The notes under the pieces are model-generated. The model saw nothing but the letters and a program-made list of their open reading frames with translations. It did no database searches and had not been told where the DNA came from. DNA of 40,040 bases from a virus, in IMG/VR virus record IMGVR_UViG_3300021957_000105, positions 1 to 40,040 of that record; one strand, written 5' to 3'. Position numbers and translations under genes: made by a program. Shown one piece after another: positions 1 through 23,583 of the stretch (position 1 is the stretch's first letter; every line of letters starts with the position of its first letter).

Positions 1-435
1 GACAACACCTGCTTCAATCAACTTTCGGCGATTGTCCAGGTGTGCGGCTTGAGTTTCTTCTTTAGATCCACCGAAGTATGGGACACAATGACCCTCTTCA
101 GCCATGACAGCAGTAACCGGTCGCCATGCATCTGTCGTTGGACAATGCACATCAAAGTCACCAAGGATACGACCAAACTTACCCTTCATGTCTTCGCCAT
201 CACGAGCAACTTGTGTTCTCAATACTGGATTCTTACCCAGTAATTCTTTGAGTCGCTTGCTTGCGGCTTTACCGAATACCTTTTCTACCTTGTCTCGGGT
301 ACGTGATTCGGGTGTATCAATGCCCATGATACGTACTCGCTCGTTTTTCAACCAGACACCAAAACCAAGATCAATGTCAACATCTACTGTGTCACCATCA
401 ACCACCTTAATCAACTTCGTTCTATATTCGTACAT
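1..435 (-). CDS. Staphylococcal-nuclease-like (SNase) protein, C-terminus cut by window edge
   Basis: The reading frame is open from an ATG at 435 to the left edge, giving 145 residues without a stop, so the C-terminus is missing. An AAGGA ribosome-binding site lies just upstream. Residues 11-16 read VVDGDT, and 33-43 read VRIMGIDTPES, which matches the thermonuclease core: the catalytic Asp of GDT, then Arg35, Asp40 and Glu43 in the R...DTPE block. A GR pair at 88-89 fits the second catalytic Arg. The family cleaves DNA or RNA with Ca2+. No signal peptide is visible, so the product is probably cytoplasmic and may degrade host DNA or process phage DNA; that role is inference. It lies 8 bases downstream of the secreted-protein gene and is probably co-transcribed from the same late promoter. 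Confidence 0.8.
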   Translation of the reverse strand, partial: MYEYRTKLIKVVDGDTVDVDIDLGFGVWLKNERVRIMGIDTPESRTRDKVEKVFGKAASKRLKELLGKNPVLRTQVARDGEDMKGKFGRILGDFDVHCPTTDAWRPVTAVMAEEGHCVPYFGGSKEETQAAHLDNRRKLIEAGVV

Positions 436-443
436 TGCTTTCC

Positions 444-812
444 TTAAAAATTAAATTCTATTCTTGCGCCGACCATATGATTATTAACAACAACCGCTGC
501 CCTTGAACCTGCGACTGTCCATAGTAACCACTCGGGGGCATCGTTCTCAATCAAACTGTGCATTCCCCAGAGACTTAAAGCAGTAGCAAGGGCAAGTTCG
601 CCATCACTAATTGTACTGCCGAACACGGGGTTCACTTCACGAAAACATTCACACGGGTCTCTCATCGCAGAATATGACTGTAAACCATCTAGAACTACAA
701 CACTAGCATAGAACGTGTAAATTTGTTTTTCTCTTTCACTCCACTCTTTCGCACTTACATTATGTGTCCATAGCAAAAGGCACATTAGTGCCATTACTTT
801 TTTAACGTACAT
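444..812 (-). CDS. Small secreted or membrane protein of unknown function, late-expressed
   Basis: The product has 122 residues. I chose the ATG at 812 because GAGAGG lies 7 bases upstream; the longer frame to 851 would run into the late promoter. Residues 1-21 form a signal peptide (MYVKKVMALMCLLLW..., with a likely cut after NVSA). The mature part has three fairly hydrophobic stretches around residues 30-45, 72-88 and 95-115, a conserved-looking REVNPVFG segment, and ends in IEFNF. The D..QS...E.NPVFG layout recalls small DUF5658-type membrane proteins, but this is only a resemblance. A TATAAATA late box lies at 856-863. Late timing plus export would suit envelope remodelling, lysis support or superinfection exclusion, none of which is shown. 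Confidence 0.7.
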   Translation of the reverse strand: MYVKKVMALMCLLLWTHNVSAKEWSEREKQIYTFYASVVVLDGLQSYSAMRDPCECFREVNPVFGSTISDGELALATALSLWGMHSLIENDAPEWLLWTVAGSRAAVVVNNHMVGARIEFNF

Positions 813-855
813 AACGTTACCTCTCAAAGGGCCCCGACCGAGGCCTCTCAAAAGA

Positions 856-863
856 TATTTATA
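856..863 (-). promoter_or_regulatory. T4-type late promoter (TATAAATA)
   Basis: The minus strand reads GTATAAATA, the gp55-dependent late promoter box. It ends 43 bases before the ATG of the secreted-protein gene and overlaps the end of the methyltransferase gene. The same GTATAAATA core occurs at two other late genes in the window. Confidence 0.7.
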
Positions 864-1587
864 CTTTTAGCGGGTTAGCAGAGGCTATCCTGTTCTTGGC
901 TACTTCAAAATATGTGACATCCATCTCAATACCAATAAAAGAACGATGACAGTTAGCACAGGCAACACCCGTTGTGCCGCTACCCATGGTGTTGTCAAGC
1001 ACCGTATCACCTTCGTTGGAATACGTCTTAATGAGATATTCCATCATGGAAACGGGTTTTTGAGTAGGATGATAACCTTTCTCTTGTTTCCATTTCTGGA
1101 CGCTTTTAGGGTATCTGGTACCCTCTGGATTGTCACGATGTTTTGATTGTGCTGAACCATAGACTTCACCAATTTTGGCGGTATCTGATTTAAAACCACC
1201 ATACGGTGTGCTGTACCACATCTGAGGATTGTATGTTGGTTTCTTGCGATAGAACACCAAAATATTTTCATGTGCCTTGAGCGGCATGACCTTGGCATTC
1301 ATCGGGTTTGTGCCTTGAGGTTTCTCCCAGATCCACTCGTACCGTAGATTCGCCAGATTAGATGCCGCAAGTGTGGTCGTGAATGGCTGTTGGGCGGTGA
1401 ATACCATCGCCGCGTTTTCTTTACAGACCCGATTGTATTGCTCCCACAGTTGATCTAACGGTATGATACTGTCCCATTTACAGGCGGTGGTACCATATGG
1501 TAAATCAACTAGAAGGAGATCAACACTATCATCGGCTAACGACGGTAGTATTTCAAGACAATTACCTAACCGTAAATCTGCATCCAT
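859..1587 (-). CDS. DNA methyltransferase, beta-class N6-adenine/N4-cytosine (N6_N4_Mtase)
   Basis: The 242-residue protein carries the two hallmarks of amino-methylating DNA methyltransferases in beta-class order. The catalytic motif IV DLPY is at residues 28-31, and the SAM-binding motif I DNTMGSGTTG is at 198-207, with HPTQKP at 173-178 and IGIEMD at 218-223. The region between (about 90-170) would hold the target-recognition part. The enzyme transfers a methyl group from SAM to adenine N6 or cytosine N4; the motifs do not settle which base. Its start overlaps the end of the putative endonuclease gene by 22 bases, so the two are translationally coupled and probably form a restriction-modification pair. 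An orphan methyltransferase protecting phage DNA is the alternative. Confidence 0.92.
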   Translation of the reverse strand: MDADLRLGNCLEILPSLADDSVDLLLVDLPYGTTACKWDSIIPLDQLWEQYNRVCKENAAMVFTAQQPFTTTLAASNLANLRYEWIWEKPQGTNPMNAKVMPLKAHENILVFYRKKPTYNPQMWYSTPYGGFKSDTAKIGEVYGSAQSKHRDNPEGTRYPKSVQKWKQEKGYHPTQKPVSMMEYLIKTYSNEGDTVLDNTMGSGTTGVACANCHRSFIGIEMDVTYFEVAKNRIASANPLKV

Positions 1588-2159
1588 TCTTCAAGTCCTA
1601 TTGTGTATTCTGAATTAAGGAGATCAACCAGTCGCTTAGAGCCAGACATCCAATCATCGTTGTCTGCTTTCTCACCGCCCTGTTGAGCACCAAAGTACTT
1701 ATTACGGATCTTACCCTTTGCAATACCCTTCATCACAAGGTGGTTTTCTTCAGCAAGTATTTTCTGAAAGTTTTCTTTAGACATCAACCGAACAACATCG
1801 TCAGTGCCGTCAGGATTAATACCCGCAAAACACAGCCATTCCCAGTCTTTACCCTCAGCAACGTGGTTCATCATCCAAGTGTTTTCCTGAATGATACCAT
1901 TTTTCTGTTGGGCAAGAGAGAACTTGTATTCAATCTTGACACCGTTGATGATAGAATCATGACTCGGGTTGAGTGGTCGTTCTACTTTACAGCCAAGTTC
2001 AGCAAACACACCGTCAAGAATCTTCTCGCCGAACTGACCTTTCTGCTTGTTGCCGAGGAACTTGTATCCCTCAAACGCAGTGCCAATCCAATAGTCTTGA
2101 TTCTGTTCAACGATATAATCTTTAGCGCCACACTTGAGGGCAGAGGAAGAAAGATTCAT
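1566..2159 (-). CDS. Putative restriction endonuclease, PD-(D/E)xK-like
   Basis: The 197-residue protein has no family I recognise by name, but it shows the active-site pattern of PD-(D/E)xK nucleases. Asp68 in SHDS is followed eight residues later by Glu77-Tyr-Lys79 (VKIEYK), and Glu45 lies in an upstream helix (GQFGEKILDG). The predicted strand order (helix with Glu, turn, strand with Asp, strand with ExK) fits. It is the first gene of a two-gene operon behind a sigma70-type promoter at 2192-2220, has a GGAG site before ATG 2159, and overlaps the methyltransferase gene. The pairing with a DNA methyltransferase is the main reason to call it a type II restriction enzyme; a phage endonuclease attacking host DNA is an alternative. 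Function is inferred. Confidence 0.6.
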   Translation of the reverse strand: MNLSSSALKCGAKDYIVEQNQDYWIGTAFEGYKFLGNKQKGQFGEKILDGVFAELGCKVERPLNPSHDSIINGVKIEYKFSLAQQKNGIIQENTWMMNHVAEGKDWEWLCFAGINPDGTDDVVRLMSKENFQKILAEENHLVMKGIAKGKIRNKYFGAQQGGEKADNDDWMSGSKRLVDLLNSEYTIGLEEWMQIYG

Positions 2160-2191
2160 AATAATAACTCCAATTCACTAATTCAAACACT

Positions 2192-2220
2192 ATGATATCA
2201 TGATTGGAGTGTTTTGTCAA
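2192..2220 (-). promoter_or_regulatory. Sigma70-type promoter of the endonuclease-methyltransferase operon
   Basis: On the minus strand TTGACA (2215-2220), 17 bases, then TATCAT (2192-2197). It sits in the gap after the carbamoyltransferase gene, 33 bases before the endonuclease ATG, so the pair can be expressed early by host RNA polymerase independently of the upstream operon. Confidence 0.7.
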
Positions 2221-3905
2221 CATGTTTTATCAATTTTCATCAATTTATTTTCGTGAACTATTATCACATGATCTAGATCACGATTGTCTAGAATCCACAG
2301 AGCATCTTCTAGTGTATTGAGAATAGGTTTACCGCCTATGTTGAACGAGGTATTGAGCAGTACATACGGGCTTCGCCTGTCCAATAACTGGTAGATAAAA
2401 GGCGATTCGTGTTTCTTTAGTGCCTGAACTCTTGCGGTGTTATCCACATGATTGACCGCAGATAGTTGTTCTCGCCATGATTCTCGTGTTGTCAAAGCAT
2501 AGTTCATTGCTTCCAGATTGTAATACGATGGACTCTCAAAATATGTTTCAACATCACGATCTCTTACGACCGGAGCAAATGGACGATACCATTCACGATG
2601 CTTGACCTTCGCGTTGATCTTATCTTTCATGCCTGGGTATGACGCACTCGCCAGAATAGATCTTCGGCACAATGATCTAGCACCGACTTCAATACCACCG
2701 TCAATGAAACCTACAATCTTACCCTCTTCTATTATATCAGAGAAATCTTCAAGATCAATCTCTGTCGCGGCTCGTTCTTCCAGAAGAGCCGGCACATTCT
2801 CTAGATCCATCAATCGGAGATCTGATAGATGTGGATCTTTACAAGGCGCTAGATCTCGCTTGAAGAAGTCCGCAAGCATACCCAGAGCAAGACCTGAATC
2901 ACCAGGATTAGAAGGTACAAACACGTTGAAATTTGGATATAGTTCTCGGATCATTTGATTCACGATCACGTTCATACCACAACCGCCACTAATCAATATG
3001 TTGTTATCATATTTCTCAGCGATTGGTACAATAGACTCGTCAAAGACAGTCTTGATCATGACCTTGGCGAGTTCTTGGAGTTCCCATGCGATTTGACATT
3101 CTTGTTCTTTGGTTAAAGGAAACTTGTCAGGAAATCCATATCGTTTTTTGTAGTGATCAATCAACTGCTTGCCCGGCCACATATTACCAAGCAATCCCTC
3201 TTCTTTGAAGACTAACTTCGGATAGACCTCTTTCATATACCAGTTGATAGTATGATAAGCGTCAGTCGTGTAGTGACCATATGCAGATAGACCCATCATT
3301 TTACCTGCGGTGTCAATTCTGATAGATCTTGCAAGACGACCACCACCTCCCGGCGATGGCTTTAAACATATACTGAATGGCAGAAAGTCGGATAAATTGC
3401 AGAACAACCAACCGATATTGATATAGTCTAACACCTCATGATTTAATCGGTGTTTGTCAAAACCAAATCTGCCCGAGAAACAAGTATCACCACCGCCATC
3501 ATAGGTCAAGGCTAATGCTCTTCCGCCACGAAAAGGCGATTGCACATAGGCAGACCTTGCGTGAAGGGCATGGTGATGAACATCTCCCATGTCTATCATT
3601 TCATCATTCTTGAAAGCCGAGCCTAGAATTCTCAGCAACTCCGGCTCTGATTCCTTGAAAAAGAATCCTTTGTGAAGGATGTACTTAAAGTCATTATCAA
3701 TATCGTAGTCTCGTTTGAGAAGACGAATCACCTCTTGGATGATATGCATGAACTCATCCAGCCGCGCTTTGTTTTTAAGTGACGGCTGATAGTGTTTTTC
3801 TTTAATGATTTTTTCTAGTTCTACCTGTATAATGCGATCATTTGCAGGATCAGTTACAGCGATTGCGGCATCATGCCCTAGAAATATGGCAAGCGATGGT
3901 TTCAT
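2217..3905 (-). CDS. Carbamoyltransferase, NodU/TobZ family
   Basis: At 562 residues this is the normal length for the family. The N-terminal Kae1-like domain shows GHDAA at 10-14, the metal-binding histidines in DVHHHALHARSAY (about 108-120) and the phosphate-binding TYDGGGDT at 134-141. SGGCGMNV and PSNPGDSGLALG lie mid-protein, and a C-terminal YrdC-like half contains GARSLCRRSIL, HREWYRPFAPVV and the YVLLNTSFNIGGKP block. Family members make carbamoyl adenylate from carbamoyl phosphate and ATP and pass the carbamoyl group to a hydroxyl, typically on a sugar or antibiotic. Phage members are known but their acceptor is generally undefined; a sugar or a modified base are both possible. The gene begins 2 bases after a small basic protein gene and ends the long 6542-2217 gene run. 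Confidence 0.92.
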   Translation of the reverse strand: MKPSLAIFLGHDAAIAVTDPANDRIIQVELEKIIKEKHYQPSLKNKARLDEFMHIIQEVIRLLKRDYDIDNDFKYILHKGFFFKESEPELLRILGSAFKNDEMIDMGDVHHHALHARSAYVQSPFRGGRALALTYDGGGDTCFSGRFGFDKHRLNHEVLDYINIGWLFCNLSDFLPFSICLKPSPGGGGRLARSIRIDTAGKMMGLSAYGHYTTDAYHTINWYMKEVYPKLVFKEEGLLGNMWPGKQLIDHYKKRYGFPDKFPLTKEQECQIAWELQELAKVMIKTVFDESIVPIAEKYDNNILISGGCGMNVIVNQMIRELYPNFNVFVPSNPGDSGLALGMLADFFKRDLAPCKDPHLSDLRLMDLENVPALLEERAATEIDLEDFSDIIEEGKIVGFIDGGIEVGARSLCRRSILASASYPGMKDKINAKVKHREWYRPFAPVVRDRDVETYFESPSYYNLEAMNYALTTRESWREQLSAVNHVDNTARVQALKKHESPFIYQLLDRRSPYVLLNTSFNIGGKPILNTLEDALWILDNRDLDHVIIVHENKLMKIDKTC

Positions 3906-3907
3906 TA

Positions 3908-4231
3908 TTACGAGATCATCTCCGAAATTTCACGAGCATACTTCGCGTTGGTTACTGGGACTGCGTTGCTTTTGTGGAGAGTGGCAATTCCGATGACGAA
4001 ATCTCCGGTGTATTGCTGGGACTCTCGCTTGTCGCCTCCTGCCTTTCTTGGAGTAAGAGGTGCCGATGGGTAGCGTTCAATCTCTGACGCACGTTGGCTT
4101 GCATACGACGAACTTGGTTTGTATTCCTGAAACTTAGGCGGTGCATATTTGACATAGACTTCCCCTTTGGGTTTTTTAGGCTTGCGTTTCCGACCACTAC
4201 TGTCGTACTTATACGATCCGAAAACTCTCAT
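3908..4231 (-). CDS. Small basic conserved-looking phage protein, function unknown
   Basis: The product has 107 residues with a strongly basic N-terminus (GRKRKPKKPKGE at 13-24), a proline- and serine-rich middle and a compact C-terminus containing TGDFVIGIATLHKSNAVPV. The last block looks like a defined motif shared among T4-like marine phages, which I recall but cannot verify here. ATG 4231 has a very good GGAGGA site. It is packed between an acidic protein gene and the carbamoyltransferase. The basic tail suggests nucleic-acid contact; this is inference. Confidence 0.7.
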   Translation of the reverse strand: MRVFGSYKYDSSGRKRKPKKPKGEVYVKYAPPKFQEYKPSSSYASQRASEIERYPSAPLTPRKAGGDKRESQQYTGDFVIGIATLHKSNAVPVTNAKYAREISEMIS

Positions 4232-4852
4232 TCATTCCTCCATATATGAAAAGTGCTCTTGAATATCAATTGAACTTCTTTCATCATGCCAGTCAGTGAC
4301 GAACTCACCAACCATGGCATAGTAGCCTTTACCTGTGGTATCGGCATAATCAAAGTCAGCATCAATCTCTATCTTATCATAAAAATAACTCTCAATCAAG
4401 TGGGCACAGTCAGTTTCTACAATACCGACATAAAATTTCTCGGGATCAAAGTCGTCTTCTGACATGATGAGAACTTCACCAAAGCCACCTTTCTCAGCAC
4501 TATGGAACACAAGAACAGGCACGGTATCTTTGCCGGGATGGTTATCGCTCGTATATGCCTCTCGGCCATAGAGATGATTATACTCAAACGGACCTAAGTG
4601 ATCACCAATCTCGTTGCCGTCAACGTCTTCCTCTTGGATATAATACTGGTTGTCAGCATATGGACCATTGAGATGTTCAATATCATCTAACTCATGCCAT
4701 GGAAATTCAGATCCACAATCATCAAAATCAGCAAAGTGATCAATGATATCACCCTCATCGGCATCTTTAAAATCATCAAACTGCGCTTGAGTGATTTGAC
4801 CAATGGTTAACTCGCCGCCATAGCGACCAGTGGATACTCTAAATCTACGCAT
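4232..4852 (-). CDS. Acidic protein of unknown function
   Basis: I chose ATG 4852 (MRRFRVSTGRYG) because GGAGAAG lies upstream and the start shares TGATG with the preceding stop; the longer frame to 4867 would overlap the neighbour further. The 206-residue product is very acidic and rich in Asp, Glu, Tyr and Phe, without cysteine clusters, signal peptide or membrane segments. An N-terminal YGGELTIGQITQ stretch is followed by long acidic blocks. DNA mimicry is a possible reading of such composition but unsupported. I do not recognise a family. Confidence 0.7.
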   Translation of the reverse strand: MRRFRVSTGRYGGELTIGQITQAQFDDFKDADEGDIIDHFADFDDCGSEFPWHELDDIEHLNGPYADNQYYIQEEDVDGNEIGDHLGPFEYNHLYGREAYTSDNHPGKDTVPVLVFHSAEKGGFGEVLIMSEDDFDPEKFYVGIVETDCAHLIESYFYDKIEIDADFDYADTTGKGYYAMVGEFVTDWHDERSSIDIQEHFSYMEE

Positions 4853-5325
4853 CAATTCTTCTCCCAACTAATATCAGGGCGAGTGTCGCCACTGCCATTC
4901 CAATTTACTTTACAACCACTCTCCTCAATGAGAGGAATGATTGCCTTGAAGTTGGCAACACCTTCGTCGCGGCCATCGAAACAGAATACAGAACTACCAG
5001 CAATTTCTGGGGGCATACAAACAAAGCCATCCACACTGGTGTCAGGTTCATAGCCGAGATCCTCGAAGTCACCTGAAACGAAACCCTCTCCTTCACAATG
5101 TCCACAATGTTCATCTTCTTCATCGTCGAAACCTGTACCGTCACAGTAGTGGCAATCTTCTTCGCTCGCACCATAGACTTCACAGTCCTGAGAATGATTG
5201 AACAACACTTTGGACAAGTCATCATGCTCGACTTCACCCCATGCACACGATTGACAACACGGCAGGTTCCACTCAACGAACCAACCTTCGGCACGAAGTG
5301 CCTCCTGCATTCTAGCAAAACTCAT
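4852..5325 (-). CDS. Cysteine-rich putative zinc-binding protein, unknown function
   Basis: The product has 157 residues. The N-terminus (about 12-55) has EGW..EWNLPCCQSC...E and VLFNHSQDCE, resembling the DUF6891-type layout. Two CxxCxGxG repeats follow, CHYCDGTGF and CGHCEGEGF at about 58-82, like the zinc-binding repeats of DnaJ. The C-terminal half has a DTRPDISW end. It probably binds zinc and may contact proteins or nucleic acids. The start overlaps the end of the upstream 50-residue gene by 14 bases and its stop overlaps the next start in TGATG. Confidence 0.7.
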   Translation of the reverse strand: MSFARMQEALRAEGWFVEWNLPCCQSCAWGEVEHDDLSKVLFNHSQDCEVYGASEEDCHYCDGTGFDDEEDEHCGHCEGEGFVSGDFEDLGYEPDTSVDGFVCMPPEIAGSSVFCFDGRDEGVANFKAIIPLIEESGCKVNWNGSGDTRPDISWEKN

Positions 5326-16786: not shown

Positions 16787-17631
16787 TTGATGTTGCGTAT
16801 ATTAAAACACTCATCAAGGACCGTGAGACGATCGGTCATACCAATAAGCATTCGCACATCGGAGTTGGCAAATTCACCACCAAAAGATTTCGCTTCTTTT
16901 GCTGTGATCTCAGCGTCTAAACCCGCTTTGATAAACGTAGGAATAGACAACGATGTATCTTGCATCACATCGCTACTCTCAATAAGGCGACGAACCTTAG
17001 AGGGGTTTGCACCTTGACAATCAATGATTGTCTGATACATTTGATTAAAGAAAGTTTGCTTGACTGCTTTAAAGCCGACAATGGCCAGTTTTGCATACAC
17101 AATTTCATGGTGTGTGCCGACCAGAACTTTCTTTGCACCCACAATAGTATTGTTCATGATAATGTTAGTATGTGCATCGACAGTCTTTTCATCACCACCA
17201 ATCATGAGCGTGTCACCGTTCAGAACTTCAAGTGCAGTCTCAGCCACTTCGGGTGAATAGATAACTTTACCTAAGAACCATTGTGCGTCAGTAACACCGA
17301 TAATTCGGTCTAGAGTCTCGTTGGTGATTGTAGTCTTGAGACATATACCAGCATCCGACTCTTTATAAATCTGAGCAAAGAGGTCCAACAACTCAGCATC
17401 ATCTGCGGTGTTGTTTTTCAGCAAAGGCAAATCTTCGCAGATATAGACGATGTTAGTGGCTTTAAGAATTTCTTCCATGTCGCCTTGTACAACATCTACC
17501 AGGTTTCTGTCAAACGATGCACGAGTGGCATCTGCTAGGTAGTTGTCACCAATAATACCAATTCTCAGTTTACCTACGGGTTGTGATGCATCATCATTAT
17601 TTTCTTGAGGGGCTACTTCTATTTCGCTCAT
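16783..17631 (-). CDS. Nucleotide-sugar-dehydrogenase-like protein with atypical cofactor loop
   Basis: The 282-residue product starts after a polar leader with KLRIGIIGDNYLADAT (21-36), a Rossmann strand in which the usual GxGxxG reads GIIGDNY. A later VIYSPEVAE...GDTLMIGGDE block matches the middle of UDP-glucose/GDP-mannose dehydrogenases, and the remainder is helical as in their dimerisation domain. The catalytic Cys of the family is not obvious. It may be a degenerate or repurposed dehydrogenase. The position between primase-like and recombination genes suggests a replication-linked rather than sugar role; this is inference. Confidence 0.55.
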   Translation of the reverse strand: MSEIEVAPQENNDDASQPVGKLRIGIIGDNYLADATRASFDRNLVDVVQGDMEEILKATNIVYICEDLPLLKNNTADDAELLDLFAQIYKESDAGICLKTTITNETLDRIIGVTDAQWFLGKVIYSPEVAETALEVLNGDTLMIGGDEKTVDAHTNIIMNNTIVGAKKVLVGTHHEIVYAKLAIVGFKAVKQTFFNQMYQTIIDCQGANPSKVRRLIESSDVMQDTSLSIPTFIKAGLDAEITAKEAKSFGGEFANSDVRMLIGMTDRLTVLDECFNIRNIK

Positions 17632-17640
17632 ATTTTACTC

Positions 17641-18576
17641 CTATGAATTTTTATAAGCATATTCAACAGCACGATCCGCTTCAACTTCAAGCGGTCTGTT
17701 ATCATACCACATTCCATTGTCTTTGTCAAGTTGGCGACAAAGGTCTGCAACTTCTCTGGCTGTTATGGGGTATCCTCTCTTGATTGCATTGCCAGCAGTA
17801 GCGATCATGATCTGATACATTTTGTGGTACCATCCAGTACCAGTTATGACTTGATATTCCATCGCTAATTGTCTAGGAAAAAATGGACAGTCGCGATAAT
17901 CTGACCATACTAGATTTGATTCTTTCATCTGACTTTTACGGTACTCTACTACCGCAGCCGCCATCTCAGGCGGTAGTCTATCAAGAAAAGAATTGCTGGC
18001 TGAAGGTGGCTTGTAACTCCACTGAGACATTATATAGTCTGGATCTACTTCGTCACCGTCATTTCCAAACGTGAAATTGAATGCTTCAGGATATTGAGCA
18101 GGAACATAATACATCCGTGACAGATCTTTCGTCTGCTTGTCACCAATATCCTGTAAATGTTTATTAAAAGCATACCAGAAATGTGGTATCTCATCTTTAT
18201 CTAACTCGCGAGTCAAGGGAAAGACCAAACGAAACTTAGGATTTACGGGAGTGCTTGATGCAGTTGAGTAACAAAGCCATCGGTACTTACCGCAAATTTC
18301 TTGCAGGTTGTGTCTGAGATCTCCAGTGTGTATATCAAAATCATCCACATCAACAGCACACCAACGAGACCAACCGCTAACGTTCCGATTAGAGCGCGTA
18401 CTGTCTTTGACATACATAGCAGGACTAAGCAAAGCAGAAGAATTATTGCCACCTTTGACTCCTGGTTCTTGTGATAGTTTAGTGAGAAATTTAGTGAATG
18501 CAGACCATGAACCCAGCGTCATTTGACGATGTGTTTTATTATCATACGTATTTTTGAAGATAGTAATCTGATACAT
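17641..18576 (-). CDS. AEP-type (archaeo-eukaryotic) primase-like protein
   Basis: The 311-residue product has WCAVDVDDFD at 72-81 (acidic metal pair Asp76/Asp78), YSTASSTPVNPKFRLVFPL at 103-121 and LSRMYYVPAQY at 152-162. This order, D.D, then S/T..S.......R.vfPL, then ..SR..y.P, is the pattern of prim-pol and related AEP proteins. A C-terminal helical domain (about 230-311) ends in a DRAVEYAYKN helix. It could prime synthesis for the gp41 helicase encoded downstream in the same operon. No DnaG-type gp61 is visible here, though it may lie outside the window. The promoter at 18583-18611 fits strong early expression. Confidence 0.6.
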   Translation of the reverse strand: MYQITIFKNTYDNKTHRQMTLGSWSAFTKFLTKLSQEPGVKGGNNSSALLSPAMYVKDSTRSNRNVSGWSRWCAVDVDDFDIHTGDLRHNLQEICGKYRWLCYSTASSTPVNPKFRLVFPLTRELDKDEIPHFWYAFNKHLQDIGDKQTKDLSRMYYVPAQYPEAFNFTFGNDGDEVDPDYIMSQWSYKPPSASNSFLDRLPPEMAAAVVEYRKSQMKESNLVWSDYRDCPFFPRQLAMEYQVITGTGWYHKMYQIMIATAGNAIKRGYPITAREVADLCRQLDKDNGMWYDNRPLEVEADRAVEYAYKNS

Positions 18577-18582
18577 GAGACT

Positions 18583-18611
18583 ATTATAATGTATTTTCAG
18601 TCAGATGTCAA
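18583..18611 (-). promoter_or_regulatory. Perfect-consensus sigma70 promoter of the primase-UvsX-gp41 operon
   Basis: TTGACA (18606-18611), 17 bases, TATAAT (18583-18588) on the minus strand, overlapping the end of gene 43. The next ATG is 7 bases past the -10, so the primase-like transcript would start at or next to its ATG unless a second promoter lies further upstream. Confidence 0.85.
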
Positions 18612-21055
18612 CCGAAAAATGCTTCTAGTGTGGCACGTGGTTCAGCAGACCAACCGACGGCATCTAGAATGGGGTTCAAAGGATCTACAAAAGATTTATC
18701 AAACATGGTGTTGTAGTCAATCTGAGGTATCAAACCTAACTCTTTAGGCAAGACACCGGGGAATGAAATGATATTCTCGTTTATACGGTTAGGTACTTTT
18801 AGATACAGGAACTTGATCTTTTCACCGTTCTGAATCTTCTCATACTTGTCCGATAGGCCTTGTTTCTTGATGTGGTGATTATATAGCAGGGCGCCACGAG
18901 AATGAATAGGAGTACCCTTGCCGTAGATTGTCACACGGTCAGAATACTTATCTACATTAGTCACACCACGAGGAAAAGCAATCGCTTCGGGCGGCAGAGT
19001 AGAAAACTCTTTACGAAATGTCCGAATGAATTTCTGTGTATCGTCTTCAGTACCCTCAATGATAACACGAAAGACTTCTTTGAATTTATCACGCACAATC
19101 TCAGGTGTGCTGGACTTGATCGCTTCAATACCCATCATCTTGAGTTTAGGTTCAGCGTATTGCACACCCTCGCTGTTGTGAACGTTGAGAATGTATCTCT
19201 TCTTTGCCATCCATATGCCACGATCTGCGATAACCTCACGTTTCATGATCATGCGATTCTCATAGGCATTTGTCTCATCCGCCAGAGTCTCATAGCCATC
19301 AGCAATGACCTTCTCAAAATGCTCACACACTTTATCAAGAAAGTTCACAGGATTGGCAGGCTTGTGGAGATTGACAAGCGATGACATATTGATGTACACA
19401 GAGTCAGTATCAATCGCAATCACATAGTCATCTTTCGTGCCAAGAATATTCTGCATCTCAGCATTGACCGATGCTTCAGCATTCTTAATCGCTCGCTGAC
19501 CACTAGTCGTGACAGCCTCTGCAATCTGCAAATCAAAGTATCTGAACCACTGATTCGCCATTGCGCCATAGAGTGAGTTCATCAGAATCTTTACCGCCAT
19601 CTGTTGATTGTCAAAGATGGTGATATCATTTGCTAGTTTCTTTGTGGGTGCTTCGGCATACTTCTTCTGCGCTTCAATCATCTTGGTCTTGGCATCTACG
19701 CGATCACCATAGAACTGCTTGATTACCTTTGGAATAATACCCTCAATGTCTTTGCGATATTTGGTGCCGTTCGCCGCTTGTGCAAAGTCTCCATCGTCAC
19801 CGTCAATCCATGAGAGAGTCTCGGGTGACATATTGTATTGTACAATGATATTAGGATACAGGCTGTTCAAGTCAAACGAGGTTACCCAATCATGTGCACC
19901 AACTACAGGATCTTTTACATAGCCGCCGACAATAGAACCTTTTGCTTTGTTCTGCTTGGGCGGTACAACAATGTCTTGCTTGAGTAAGGCATTAAAGATA
20001 ACAGCATCCCATATCGTGGTAGTGCCGAAGGTGTCAGAGTAATTAGTCTTGGCTTTATATGCCATGGTGAGAGCCAATGTAATAAGACCCATCTTCTCTT
20101 CTAGTTTGTCTACCAATTCTACGTCTTTGATGTTGTAGTCAATGAATTTTTGATAGTCGTTCTTATAGAGCGTGTGGAGATTGCCATGTTCTTCGTAGGA
20201 GAGTTTATTCTCGCCAAGTATTGAGTATGCAATGTGATCCAGTTTGTATGACTCTTGCTCGCCGTAAGTGAGTTTACCAAACTTCTGAAACAAATCATAG
20301 TAATCTAACTGTGAGATACCCTCAAGGTCATACACAATGGCATCTTGACCCATCTTGGTGTGAATCTTTCGTTGTCTGATCAGACCCCAAGGTGATAACT
20401 TCTTGGCTTCTTCTTCGCCCATCAGCCGAGTGATACGATTAGCGAGATACGGAATGTCAAACTGTTTTGTGTTCCAGCCAGTCACAATATCAGGACAGGT
20501 AGACTTAGATGACCACCAACCAAGAAACGATTGAAGCAGATTTTTTTCAGTCTCACAATAGAAATACTTGACCGCTTTATCGCTGAGGCTGACATCATAA
20601 GGTTGTGAACCCCAAACATAATATACATTAGTTATGTTATTCTTACATGTAATAGCAGTGACTTCATGAAGGGCGTCTTCAGGAAAGGGAAAGCCTTCGT
20701 CAGATGCTACCTCAATATCAATAGTGGTCACATTAATGCGTTCACGCTCAAAGGTAATGTCACGAGGAAAAGACGTGCCAATATATTGGAGCACGAAGTT
20801 GGACATGCCACTGACCGGATAGTTGGGCACATCTTCATACTGTTTTATGAAGTCGGACGCCTCACGCATGTCATTGAATTCTATAGGCGACACCTTGGTG
20901 CCATATAGACTGCTGAATTTAGATGCAACACCCTTGGGGGTAGGTACAAAAAGACTGGGTTTATATCTTATCTTCTTTTGAACTCGTTCGCCATTCTCAT
21001 AGCCACGATAAAGAAGATTAACGCCGTAACGGGTAACATTGGTATAATATTTCAT
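18608..21055 (-). CDS. 43: DNA polymerase gp43 (family B)
   Basis: The 815-residue product is somewhat shorter than T4 gp43 (898). Exonuclease motifs: TIDIEVAS with Asp113 and Glu115, [10 protein letters not shown] at 195-204 and YNIKDVE at 307-313. Polymerase motif [10 protein letters not shown] at 394-402, motif [15 protein letters not shown] at 489-502, and motif C AIDTDSVY at 547-554 with Asp549 and Asp551. It replicates the phage genome with the gp45 clamp and proofreads. It has its own promoter at 21062-21090. Confidence 0.97.
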
Positions 21056-21061
21056 TCAGTA

Positions 21062-21090
21062 AGTATACTGTATTCCTTAGTCTTTGTCAA
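21062..21090 (-). promoter_or_regulatory. Sigma70-type promoter of gene 43
   Basis: TTGACA (21085-21090), 17 bases, TATACT (21062-21067) on the minus strand, inside the end of the upstream glycosyltransferase gene. The -10 is 6 bases from ATG 21055, so a transcript from it would start almost at the ATG. Confidence 0.7.
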
Positions 21091-21829
21091 GTGATATCCA
21101 CTCAAAATCTGGATGTTTTTCGCGTCTGTACATGGTCGTCATATCGTACTTACCGTTTCGCATAGACTTGGGGCGATCGGTGACAGTGCCACCATACTTT
21201 TCGTCTACGATTTGAGTACAGGGCGCATGGAGAACAACCGCGGGATCTGTGTGCGCTTGACTTGCATCTGCGCCTATACCCATGAGATTGACCCAGCGAG
21301 GATCCTTTCGGCGATTCATCGGCCAGTATATCACATTGTTTTTTATTTTAGCAACTCTGCAATACGTATCTGTTGCGGAGTGAAGACACGACATAGGACC
21401 TCTTGAATTACTGCCCCGGTCTCTTACCAAGTTCAACCACTGCTGTGCTACGCCTTGCTGACAAGTCCATATTTCCATTGCTGTACCCAGAACAATCGTA
21501 GGCATTTGTTTCCACTTACTCATAACCATTCTAAAAGTGTCAACGTGCTTTGGACGGAGATAAGCGTCATGTTCCATTACCCAAATTCTTTCGCCCGATG
21601 CTATTCTCTTTGCCATTCTATATGCGGAATGAAACGAACCCATTTCTTGAGGTGATCTACTGTCAGAACTAATATAGTCTAACTCAGGCAGTAATGTAGT
21701 CGGAGTGACACATTGGACAACATGTATTTGGAATATATCTTCAACGGGTTTAAATGATTCTAACGCTCGCTCGGTATATCTTACCGCTAGTGGATTGTTT
21801 AGATCCACCTGCATGTAGGCTTGAATCAT
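21077..21829 (-). CDS. Putative glycosyltransferase (GT25-like)
   Basis: The 250-residue product has GSFHSAYRMAKRIASGERIWVMEHDAYLRP at 64-93, with the H..A.....E..WVMEHDA layout in which the acidic E-x-D block would bind metal and nucleotide sugar, as in GT25-like enzymes. The middle (PMSCLHSATDTYC) and C-terminal VLHAPCTQIV parts are not recognisable. Its ATG overlaps the methyltransferase stop in ATGA, so a sugar transfer plus methylation pathway is plausible. Substrate unknown. Confidence 0.5.
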   Translation of the reverse strand: MIQAYMQVDLNNPLAVRYTERALESFKPVEDIFQIHVVQCVTPTTLLPELDYISSDSRSPQEMGSFHSAYRMAKRIASGERIWVMEHDAYLRPKHVDTFRMVMSKWKQMPTIVLGTAMEIWTCQQGVAQQWLNLVRDRGSNSRGPMSCLHSATDTYCRVAKIKNNVIYWPMNRRKDPRWVNLMGIGADASQAHTDPAVVLHAPCTQIVDEKYGGTVTDRPKSMRNGKYDMTTMYRREKHPDFEWISLDKD

Positions 21830-22575
21830 CGCCAGAACTCATCGTCCGATTGCATTCCAAACAGTTCTTCAAAGTGAAAAGGACTATTCTTTATCATCCA
21901 ACATGCGATTCTGATCTTGGCATTGACCTTAAACTTTTCAAAGTCGGCTGATCCTTTCTCCAACCAGTTAGAAAGATCTCTTGACACATCGCCAATCGTA
22001 AAGCAAGTAATCTCACTGTGCTTTATTTTATATCGTTCGGCAGTGTATCCGTTTGCTTTGAGATACTCATTAAAACAATCAATCGCACCGTGAACTAAAG
22101 TTGTGTCATGAAAGAGAATACAACCAGTCTCTTTCAGATGTTTGAGTGCATTCATGGCATCACGAAACGCCGCCGCGTTTGTATGTTCTGCATCTATAAA
22201 AATAATATCATACTTGGTTGTTACCGGCAGATAAGCGAGATCACCTTGAAACGTCTCCATCCTGTCTGTAGGTACCTCCCAGTGTTCCAACAGTTCATAG
22301 ACTTTTTCAAACGATGGACTACCATTATGTCCTTGACCACGAATGTGATCTTTATTTCGTTCGTCAGGATACGACTCAGGATATAGATCCAAAGCCATGA
22401 GATATTTCAGTTTAGGATTTAGAAGTTGGTAGGGTAAACTCTGACCGTAATAGGTGCCGACTTCTAGCCAGTTGTAGTCTTTAAAGTAGTGGCCCAAGGC
22501 GATCATGAACTCGGTATCACCTTTCATCATCATACCGTTGTCTTCAGGATTATTAATATCAAACTTTTTGGACAT
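21826..22575 (-). CDS. Class I SAM-dependent methyltransferase (Methyltransf_24-like)
   Basis: The 249-residue product has motif I as WLEVGTYYGQS (36-46) and the strand YDIIFIDAEHT (122-132) with GCILFHDTT after it, the layout of class I methyltransferases acting on small molecules or sugars. No DNA-methylase (DPPY) motif is present. It is followed directly by a glycosyltransferase, suggesting modification of a glycan. No clear promoter immediately upstream; a strong hairpin lies at 22668-22718. Confidence 0.75.
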   Translation of the reverse strand: MSKKFDINNPEDNGMMMKGDTEFMIALGHYFKDYNWLEVGTYYGQSLPYQLLNPKLKYLMALDLYPESYPDERNKDHIRGQGHNGSPSFEKVYELLEHWEVPTDRMETFQGDLAYLPVTTKYDIIFIDAEHTNAAAFRDAMNALKHLKETGCILFHDTTLVHGAIDCFNEYLKANGYTAERYKIKHSEITCFTIGDVSRDLSNWLEKGSADFEKFKVNAKIRIACWMIKNSPFHFEELFGMQSDDEFWR

Positions 22576-22667
22576 AATTTAATCTCATGTGTAAAATTGG
22601 TCCGACATTTTTAGGTGATCCGTTCCGTGAGATCCAAGAACGCCGGCAAACTTGTATGCTATTACTT

Positions 22668-22718
22668 AGACGATAAAGAATGGGTCGGGGGGATGCGTCC
22701 CCCCAGTTTATGCCGTCT
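22668..22718. other. Long imperfect hairpin with a seven-pair G/C core
   Basis: Outer arms AGACG-ATAAA (22668-22677) and TTTAT-GC-CGTCT (22707-22718) enclose the stem GGGGGGA (22687-22693), loop TGCG, TCCCCCC (22698-22704). No T-run follows on either strand, so it is not a textbook terminator. It lies in the only sizeable non-coding stretch of this section (22576-22742), between the micro-membrane genes and the methyltransferase gene. Candidate RNA structure, processing site or attenuator. Confidence 0.7.
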
Positions 22719-22742
22719 TGCGCTTAAGAGGCACCCAAGGTT

Positions 22743-22886
22743 TTACAAATATGGCGCTGGCATATACAGACTTGAGCCCGCTGTGTACACACCGTAGTTA
22801 GGTGTGAAGAGAGGTGCTATTAGACCTCCCAGTACAAGCGAAGCAAAGAATACAATGCCTAACCAACTTTTGATTTTCTTAATCAT
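22743..22886 (-). CDS. 47-residue membrane peptide
   Basis: ATG 22886 overlaps the previous stop in ATGA and lies behind AAGGA. The product is MIKKIKSWLGIVFFASLVLG... with one hydrophobic span (8-26) and a Pro/Tyr-rich tail ending PAPYL. It is the third of three tiny overlapping genes after Hsp20. Function unknown. Confidence 0.55.
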   Translation of the reverse strand: MIKKIKSWLGIVFFASLVLGGLIAPLFTPNYGVYTAGSSLYMPAPYL

Positions 22887-23035
22887 CTTGCTTCCTTGAT
22901 ATAATACTGTCTGCATTCATGAATACTCTCTGCTATGCCATCCTGTACTTCTTGTTCGCATTTTGCATTAAGTTTTCGGTTACTGTCGCCTACAAGTATG
23001 ATACCTACAAACACCATTGCTAGTAGTCCGCCCAT
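22883..23035 (-). CDS. 50-residue membrane-anchored peptide
   Basis: ATG 23035 overlaps the preceding stop in TAATG. N-terminal span MGGLLAMVFVGIILVG, then a polar helix with two cysteines (KCEQEVQDGIAESIHECRQ). The size and layout resemble small spanin-like or Rz-like peptides, but there is no second evidence for lysis. Confidence 0.5.
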   Translation of the reverse strand: MGGLLAMVFVGIILVGDSNRKLNAKCEQEVQDGIAESIHECRQYYIKEAR

Positions 23036-23142
23036 TATATTGAGACGTAACTAATGAGCATGATGAATGGTGCTACTGCTAAGATAGTGAGTAATTGCAT
23101 GACTGCAATGACCCCTTCTTTACTACTTACTAAAGTTTTCAT
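23035..23142 (-). CDS. 35-residue membrane peptide
   Basis: ATG 23142 starts 10 bases after AAGGA at the end of the Hsp20 gene. MKTLVSSKEGVIAVMQLLTI followed by LAVAPFIMLISYVSI gives one hydrophobic span. It couples to the next gene through TAATG. Confidence 0.5.
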   Translation of the reverse strand: MKTLVSSKEGVIAVMQLLTILAVAPFIMLISYVSI

Positions 23143-23145
23143 TTC

Positions 23146-23583
23146 TTAAGTGTCCTTTTGAGAATTGATTTCTATTTTTCTCGGACGCTTCTCTTCGGGC
23201 AGTTCTACTCTGAGTTTAATCACTAGTAGTCCGTTGACGAATTCCGCTCCATCAACGACAACGTGGTCTGCGAGTCGAAATGTTTCCACGAATTTCTTCG
23301 TAGTAATCCCTTTGTGAAGATACTCACGAGTATCCTCTTCTGGGTTTCCCCGAATCACTAGAACACCGGGCTTTGCCTCGATATCTAGGTCTTTCTTTTT
23401 GTAACCACCAAGTGCAAATTCCATGGCGTATTCCGTGTCACTATATTTGATAATATTGTGACGAGGAAAACCCTTCTCGTTTGCTCCTGCGACTGTTAGT
23501 TTTTCTATCTCATCCCATACATGGTCGAAACCAATGAAACGAGAGTGGGGGAACGAAAACACTTTTGTTCGTGTATTAACCAT
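23146..23583 (-). CDS. Small heat-shock protein, Hsp20/IbpA family
   Basis: The 145-residue product has the alpha-crystallin domain: YAMEFALGGYKKKDLDIEAKPGVLVIRG (about 52-79), then a strand pair with FRLADHVVVDGAEFVNGLLVIKL, where the usual GVL reads GLL, and a short C-terminal tail. It holds unfolding proteins as an ATP-independent chaperone. Hsp20 genes are common in T4-like marine phages, possibly aiding capsid or polymerase folding. Promoter 23651-23679. Confidence 0.9.
   Translation of the reverse strand: MVNTRTKVFSFPHSRFIGFDHVWDEIEKLTVAGANEKGFPRHNIIKYSDTEYAMEFALGGYKKKDLDIEAKPGVLVIRGNPEEDTREYLHKGITTKKFVETFRLADHVVVDGAEFVNGLLVIKLRVELPEEKRPRKIEINSQKDT

Follow-up and report, generated by a model that had tools for sequence, protein, structure and literature searches.

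A putative type II restriction-modification pair in a marine T4-like phage, and solitary relatives of its nuclease in genomes depleted of TCGA

A 40,040-base IMG/VR record of a marine T4-like virus of bacteria (the whole of which is referred to as the window) carries two adjacent genes that probably encode a complete phage type II restriction-modification (R-M) system. The nuclease (R) and its cognate adenine-N6 methyltransferase (M) would both read the palindrome TCGA, and would act on host or co-infecting DNA; a probability of roughly 0.7 is placed on this reading. The R-M assignment was first made in a preliminary description of the same DNA and is upheld by a predicted restriction endonuclease fold, a PADLOC match, linkage of R to M, purifying selection, co-divergence and avoidance of a 4-bp target.

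Both genes lie on the minus strand, R (197 aa, ATG start) at 2159-1566 and M (242 aa, ATG start) at 1587-859. As described before, the end of R and the start of M overlap by 22 bp (1566-1587), which is suggestive of translational coupling, and the identical overlap occurs in the related contigs L007, L012 and L014. A sigma70-like promoter, TTGACA-17-TATCAT with an extended TG, is found upstream (2220-2192, minus strand); it agrees with the consensus at 11 of 12 positions, ranks among the top two sites in 8 kb and has a counterpart in position in the nearest relative, L007, whose sequence reads TTGAAA-17-GATAAT. The promoter-like site itself stands; the earlier claim that it serves just these two genes is not supported, since a third same-strand ORF (851-444; 135 aa from TTG) begins 7 bases past the M stop with no terminator seen between the two, and may share one transcript with R and M. 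The true start of this ORF is likely to be an internal ATG; its N-terminus resembles a signal peptide and its product is of unassigned function. Adjoining the pair on its upstream side is a gene for a Nol-like carbamoyltransferase (2217-3905), a product also annotated in S-SSM5 and P-RSM4, though not beside an R-M pair there. T4-like core genes on the same strand of the window encode DNA polymerase, UvsX, a DnaB-type helicase, clamp loader, SbcC/SbcD-like (gp46/47-type) proteins, a late sigma factor and UvsY, together with the head genes for major head protein, scaffold and protease.

No restriction endonuclease match for R was obtained from Pfam or NCBIfam, and searches of solved structures by sequence, with R and with an R profile, gave no match. 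R belongs with PHROG 6927 (5e-32; unknown function) and is matched weakly, over residues 13-88 only, by the PADLOC type II endonuclease model REase_II PDLC03515 (1.4e-6). The same model matches 28 of 30 relatives; it also matches the divergent homologue of S-BM3 (1.5e-27) and, likewise strongly, that of S-ShM2. An AlphaFold model built from a 30-sequence alignment (mean pLDDT 90, pTM 0.84) predicts a PD-(D/E)xK nuclease core in canonical layout, with E45 in helix 37-54, D68 opening strand 69-71, and E77 and K79 on strand 74-82. In comparisons by Foldseek and VIA-align the top fold matches were restriction endonucleases and related nucleases. Eco15I was the best PDB match (Z 9.8 over 114 residues, 3.2 Å); other scores were 9.7 for I-Ssp6803I, 9.5 for NhoI, 8.4 for ThaI, 7.4 for HinP1I, 6.8 for PvuII and 6.5 for DpnI, and EcoRV was also among the top matches. 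The similarity to NhoI and Eco15I (Z 9.5-9.8) extends over the core only, at 12-14% identity. The motif pointed out earlier (Glu45 and Asp68-x8-Glu77-x-Lys79) is not a product of chance, because K40, G41, E45, D68, E77 and K79 are invariant across an alignment of 50 non-redundant homologues. From fold and conservation, R is a putative PD-(D/E)xK type II restriction endonuclease, in which E45, D68, E77 and K79 would be catalytic. Two giant-virus proteins in BFVD share the R fold: A0A076FFB8 of Aureococcus anophagefferens virus (TMq 0.60) and A0A5J6VLA4 from a Megaviridae sample (TMq 0.42).

M matches PF01555 at 1.9e-30. It contains the DLPY (motif IV, residues 28-31) and DNTMGSGTTG (SAM-binding motif I, 198-207) that had been noted previously, as well as HPTQKP (173-178), and the motif order, with IV ahead of X and I, is that of the beta class. 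Its nearest solved relatives, DpnA, CcrM, MboIIA and RsrI, are adenine methyltransferases; N4-cytosine methyltransferases match as well. M is predicted to be an N6-adenine methyltransferase acting on the site of R. Methyltransferases similar to M are present in more than 500 phage records, among which the R-linked enzymes are a distinct subgroup: median identity to the window M in the target-recognition region was 0.85 and 0.74 for R-linked proteins versus 0.40 for those without R.

Scans of IMG/VR together with phage records yielded 208 R loci, forming 78 non-redundant clusters at 95% (NR95). M is downstream of R in 55 of the 78 and overlaps it, or lies no more than 4 bp away, in 51; six different junctions are seen, of -7, -34, -61, -22, +4 and -10 bases. 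Most homologues are paired with M and a minority, which proved the most revealing, are solitary, contrary to the pattern, homologues always without a methyltransferase, that had been named as fatal to the R-M assignment. Three more clusters (L059, L077 and L090) have a different, DPPY methyltransferase directly downstream of R. Of the annotated phages, P-SSM7 and MH319743, a single-cell record, have M immediately after R. Viewed from the methyltransferase, all 45 loci with an enzyme of 69% or more identity to the window M have on the same contig either R (35) or R2 (10), a second endonuclease-like family of ~193 aa that is usually directly upstream of M. R2 takes the place of R ahead of the M clade at L187:1933-2514, L206:1942-2523, L220:1636-2223, L226:1449-2033 and L227:1914-2468, among others. 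It has the residues E30, D57 and ISNK69, had no match in a PHROG search and is modelled (pLDDT 90.5) with a PD-(D/E)xK-like fold resembling Eco15I (Z 8.3), NhoI, EcoRV and DpnI, for which Foldseek alone gave weak results. Profile comparison of R with R2 revealed no convincing homology, though the catalytic positions line up. Two unrelated nucleases alternating beside one M clade are what is expected under R-M pairing. Both R and M are under purifying selection (omega ~0.1 for each). The rate of change in R is about double that in M, and distances for the two proteins are correlated (r = 0.84; the best of 2000 permutations gave 0.46).

The R nuclease is carried by hundreds of marine contigs and another R-M pair is annotated in P-SSM4, so the rarity of complete systems in T4-like phages had been overstated. 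The P-SSM4 pair (PSSM4_046/047; L517:40590-42235), near the helicase GC36/dam GC38 region, is similar to that of the window in having adjacent endonuclease and methyltransferase genes in a marine T4-like phage. Since P-SSM4 is absent from the records with R homologues, its endonuclease differs from R. No relatives were detected in a plasmid search or in two scans of ~85,000 bacterial and archaeal genomes by short peptide patterns, which can miss distant relatives. Judged from these searches, the pair represents a widespread marine-phage type II family that is so far phage-only. Virus-encoded R-M as such is already known; what is new, within the reach of the tools used, is the size of the family, its restriction to phages, the exchange of R and R2 beside one M and a solitary branch in which one tetramer is lost throughout the genome. 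Literature searches on phage-encoded R-M and on TCGA avoidance by cyanophages returned nothing.

The genome of a phage with an unprotected nuclease should lose the site of that nuclease. S-SSM4, which has R and no such M, contains no TCGA against 330 expected, while P-SSM7, with both genes, retains 259 of 339. Pooled observed/expected ratios (O/E) were 0.11 in 17 solitary-R contigs (contigs with another methyltransferase, divergent ones and those with a broken M having been dropped; 0.29 in all 25 unfiltered), 0.42 in 63 paired contigs, 0.40 in R2+M contigs and 0.97 in contigs with M and without R. Two sets of controls, T4-like contigs picked by gp23 and lacking R on the stretch examined, gave 0.92 (n = 59) and 0.80 (n = 57). 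In solitary-R contigs TCGA was the most depleted of 136 tetramers, whether compared with either control or with paired contigs, and it was also the most depleted in R2+M contigs. The contigs are phylogenetically non-independent, and when R was collapsed at 80% the difference between solitary and paired forms had P = 0.08 and that between solitary forms and controls P = 2e-5. The solitary, TCGA-free state occurs at about five places on the R tree (L084; L346/L352; L170; L162; the S-SSM4 clade). Ten R-lacking isolates of Kyanoviridae or related groups have a TCGA O/E of 0.70-0.95, compared with none in S-SSM4 and S-SSM6b. There are exceptions. In ACG-2014f R is solitary, its motifs are intact and 335 of 415 TCGA sites are present; this phage also keeps CCGG, unlike other cyanophage isolates, and one guess is that its DNA is globally modified. 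L320 and L329 are weaker exceptions. Taken over the main clade, these ratios make TCGA the probable site of R.

In the window itself 60 TCGA were counted where 135 were expected; the O/E of 0.44 is below those of all 59 window-like controls (lowest 0.52), and that of a close relative, L357, is 0.54. The 60 sites lie outside two stretches free of TCGA, 1-4975 (the R-M region and its flanks) and 17181-23274 (6 kb with DNA polymerase). Over the subclade of the window avoidance of TCGA is not clear, L007 and L012 showing none; here the assignment of TCGA follows from conservation of M, and that TCGA is the site of this particular pair is favoured with rather less assurance than for the main clade.

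A different tetramer was lost in a second clade. S-ShM2, whose solitary R is divergent (25% identical), has no TTAA where 586 are expected, and its relative S-BM3 has 76 of 552; the ratio in all other isolates is 0.77-1.05. Specificity therefore seems to differ between R clades, each solitary clade apparently being without its own tetramer. The length of the PDLC03515 model (186 aa) and the TTAA purge in S-ShM2 would both fit the MseI (TTAA) group.

These patterns suggest how the system might work. After injection the sigma70-like promoter of the pair would drive its expression, R would cut the host chromosome and any co-infecting DNA at unmethylated TCGA, and M would methylate phage DNA and spare the phage genome. 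The gene order, R before M, and the partial depletion of TCGA in paired phages would fit a brief period of self-restriction. In relatives without M, whether it was lost or never present, R may be tolerated through removal of TCGA from the genome, and site removal seems to replace methylation in solitary-R phages. It is about an even chance that this amounts to restriction without modification, in which M-less phages, with genomes of ~180 kb, have erased the 4-bp target of their nuclease (TCGA for the main clade and TTAA for that of S-ShM2), absence of the site marks self, and the family is one answer to host DNA destruction without denA and denB.

The T4 genes denA, ndd and denB are missing from cyanomyoviruses and other marine T4-like phages, and it has been suggested that cyanomyoviruses may degrade DNA in a way yet to be described (PMC2984593). 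A host-DNA-cutting role for R, in which the pair would operate on unmarked host DNA much as the chlorovirus systems are held to do (PMC7019647), fits this absence; the most likely role of R is the cutting of host and co-infecting DNA, and R is thus a candidate to fill the place of denA/denB. The competition weapon proposed earlier is a possible role, host DNA degradation being at least as likely. A version of it compatible with the R-M reading, in which the pair is kept mainly for exclusion of superinfecting phages or satellites and not for host DNA breakdown, is credible at somewhat under even odds. TCGA is kept in many co-occurring marine phages, and the Marseillevirus R-M system spares host DNA and has been put forward as a weapon against viruses that infect the same cell (PMC7253447), so competitor exclusion may apply here too. 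The Marseillevirus system is also a virus R-M pair with R expressed before M; it differs from that of the window in its site (GATC), in leaving host DNA undegraded and in packaging M (PMC7253447). Against exclusion as the main role, the lack of denA, ndd and denB leaves room for a host-DNA nuclease, and the chlorovirus endonucleases, which were not responsible for exclusion, are held to break down host DNA within minutes (PMC7019647). The systems of PBCV-1 and its relatives likewise have adjacent virus-encoded R and M genes with short sites, R being thought to degrade host DNA. Unlike the situation in the window, the chlorovirus host is eukaryotic and R is packaged in the virion, and the part of the source drawn on here describes no solitary-R variant with a purged site (PMC7019647).

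Among phages, R.Nph3I/M.Nph3I of NrS-3 is likewise phage-encoded, and that pair is biochemically active; GGATCC, the target of the M, occurs just once in the NrS-3 genome (PMC10734518). NrS-3 differs in being a temperate Nitratiruptor phage with the sites RGATCY/GGATCC (PMC10734518). Odn of ICP1 resembles solitary R as a lone phage endonuclease directed against non-self DNA, but is an origin-directed chimeric nuclease and no restriction enzyme (PMC8263062).

The R-M reading could be right and the site wrong. Were the pair a genuine type II system with another site such as AGCT, the TCGA avoidance of its relatives would be host-driven or clade-specific. L007 (34 of 36 TCGA) and L012 (45 of 45), the closest relatives of the window, do not avoid TCGA; AGCT is absent from the window (0 of ~77-125 expected), as it is from the close relative L357 and from L360, L379, L401 and L412, and in paired contigs no tetramer is more depleted, TCGA included. 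However, most marine isolates have little AGCT, R-lacking ones among them (0.18-0.62), and it is at zero in the R-lacking, window-like contigs L360 and L401, while its depletion in solitary-R and R2 contigs is no greater than in P-SSM7-like controls. AGCT was set aside as the site of R as R-lacking relatives and isolates avoid it too; its absence from the window is probably due to host restriction or an unseen system. Host-driven avoidance of TCGA is countered by phages of one host strain that differ in TCGA according to R: S-SSM6b, which has R, contains 0 of 66 expected sites and S-SSM7, which lacks it, 59 of 77, both being listed from Synechococcus WH8109. A site other than TCGA is, on balance, unlikely.

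Other palindromes are purged in this group. CCGG is absent or nearly so from all marine cyanophage isolates examined (L515-L525, L255-L274, L526-L543) except ACG-2014f, and several Prochlorococcus phages lack GCGC and CGCG; these purges are common to R-lacking isolates and were rejected as signals of R. GTAC is missing from S-SM1 and Syn1 (50 kb of each examined), which are without R. Palindromes purged in the absence of R (CCGG, AGCT, GTAC) indicate that host restriction can yield such signals. S-SM1 also encodes a 170-aa singleton with a GKDLIDANGFSYESK motif, SSM1_072 (L522:43522-44034), directly after the helicase, the place occupied by R in S-SSM4 and S-ShM2. No family or relative was found for SSM1_072, and a search of Syn1 for a relative gave none; it is possibly another solitary restriction enzyme.

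Two further readings would separate R from M altogether. Hjc resolvases rank just under restriction endonucleases in similarity of fold to R (Z 7-9, up to 8.9; fold only, R having no sequence match to solved chains), and R might be a structure-specific or repair nuclease, akin to a Holliday-junction resolvase, beside an orphan methyltransferase. This is very improbable given the REase_II match in 28 of 30 relatives, linkage to M over many junctions and the replacement of R by R2 at the same place, and a resolvase would provide no reason for purges of TCGA and TTAA in phages with a solitary R. Equally remote is the possibility that R, whose closest folds are the methylation-dependent NhoI and Eco15I, is itself an enzyme of that kind (NhoI/Eco15I or DpnI), directed against modified DNA and not the partner of M. 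It would cut the methylated DNA of its own phage if the sites agree and would exert no selection against unmethylated TCGA in M-less phages, and in most relatives M is directly downstream of R, where a type IIM enzyme (NhoI/Eco15I) would be expected to have no adjacent cognate methyltransferase.

With R and M read as partners in a type II system, a phage R-M family whose site can be inferred brings the question of host DNA degradation by cyanomyoviruses within reach of tests on cultured phages, in P-SSM7 (R and M) and in S-SSM4 and S-SSM6b (R only). From genome statistics alone, TCGA and TTAA can be predicted as the sites of enzymes that are still uncharacterised, and the solitary forms suggest that viruses can swap protective methylation for wholesale removal of the site.
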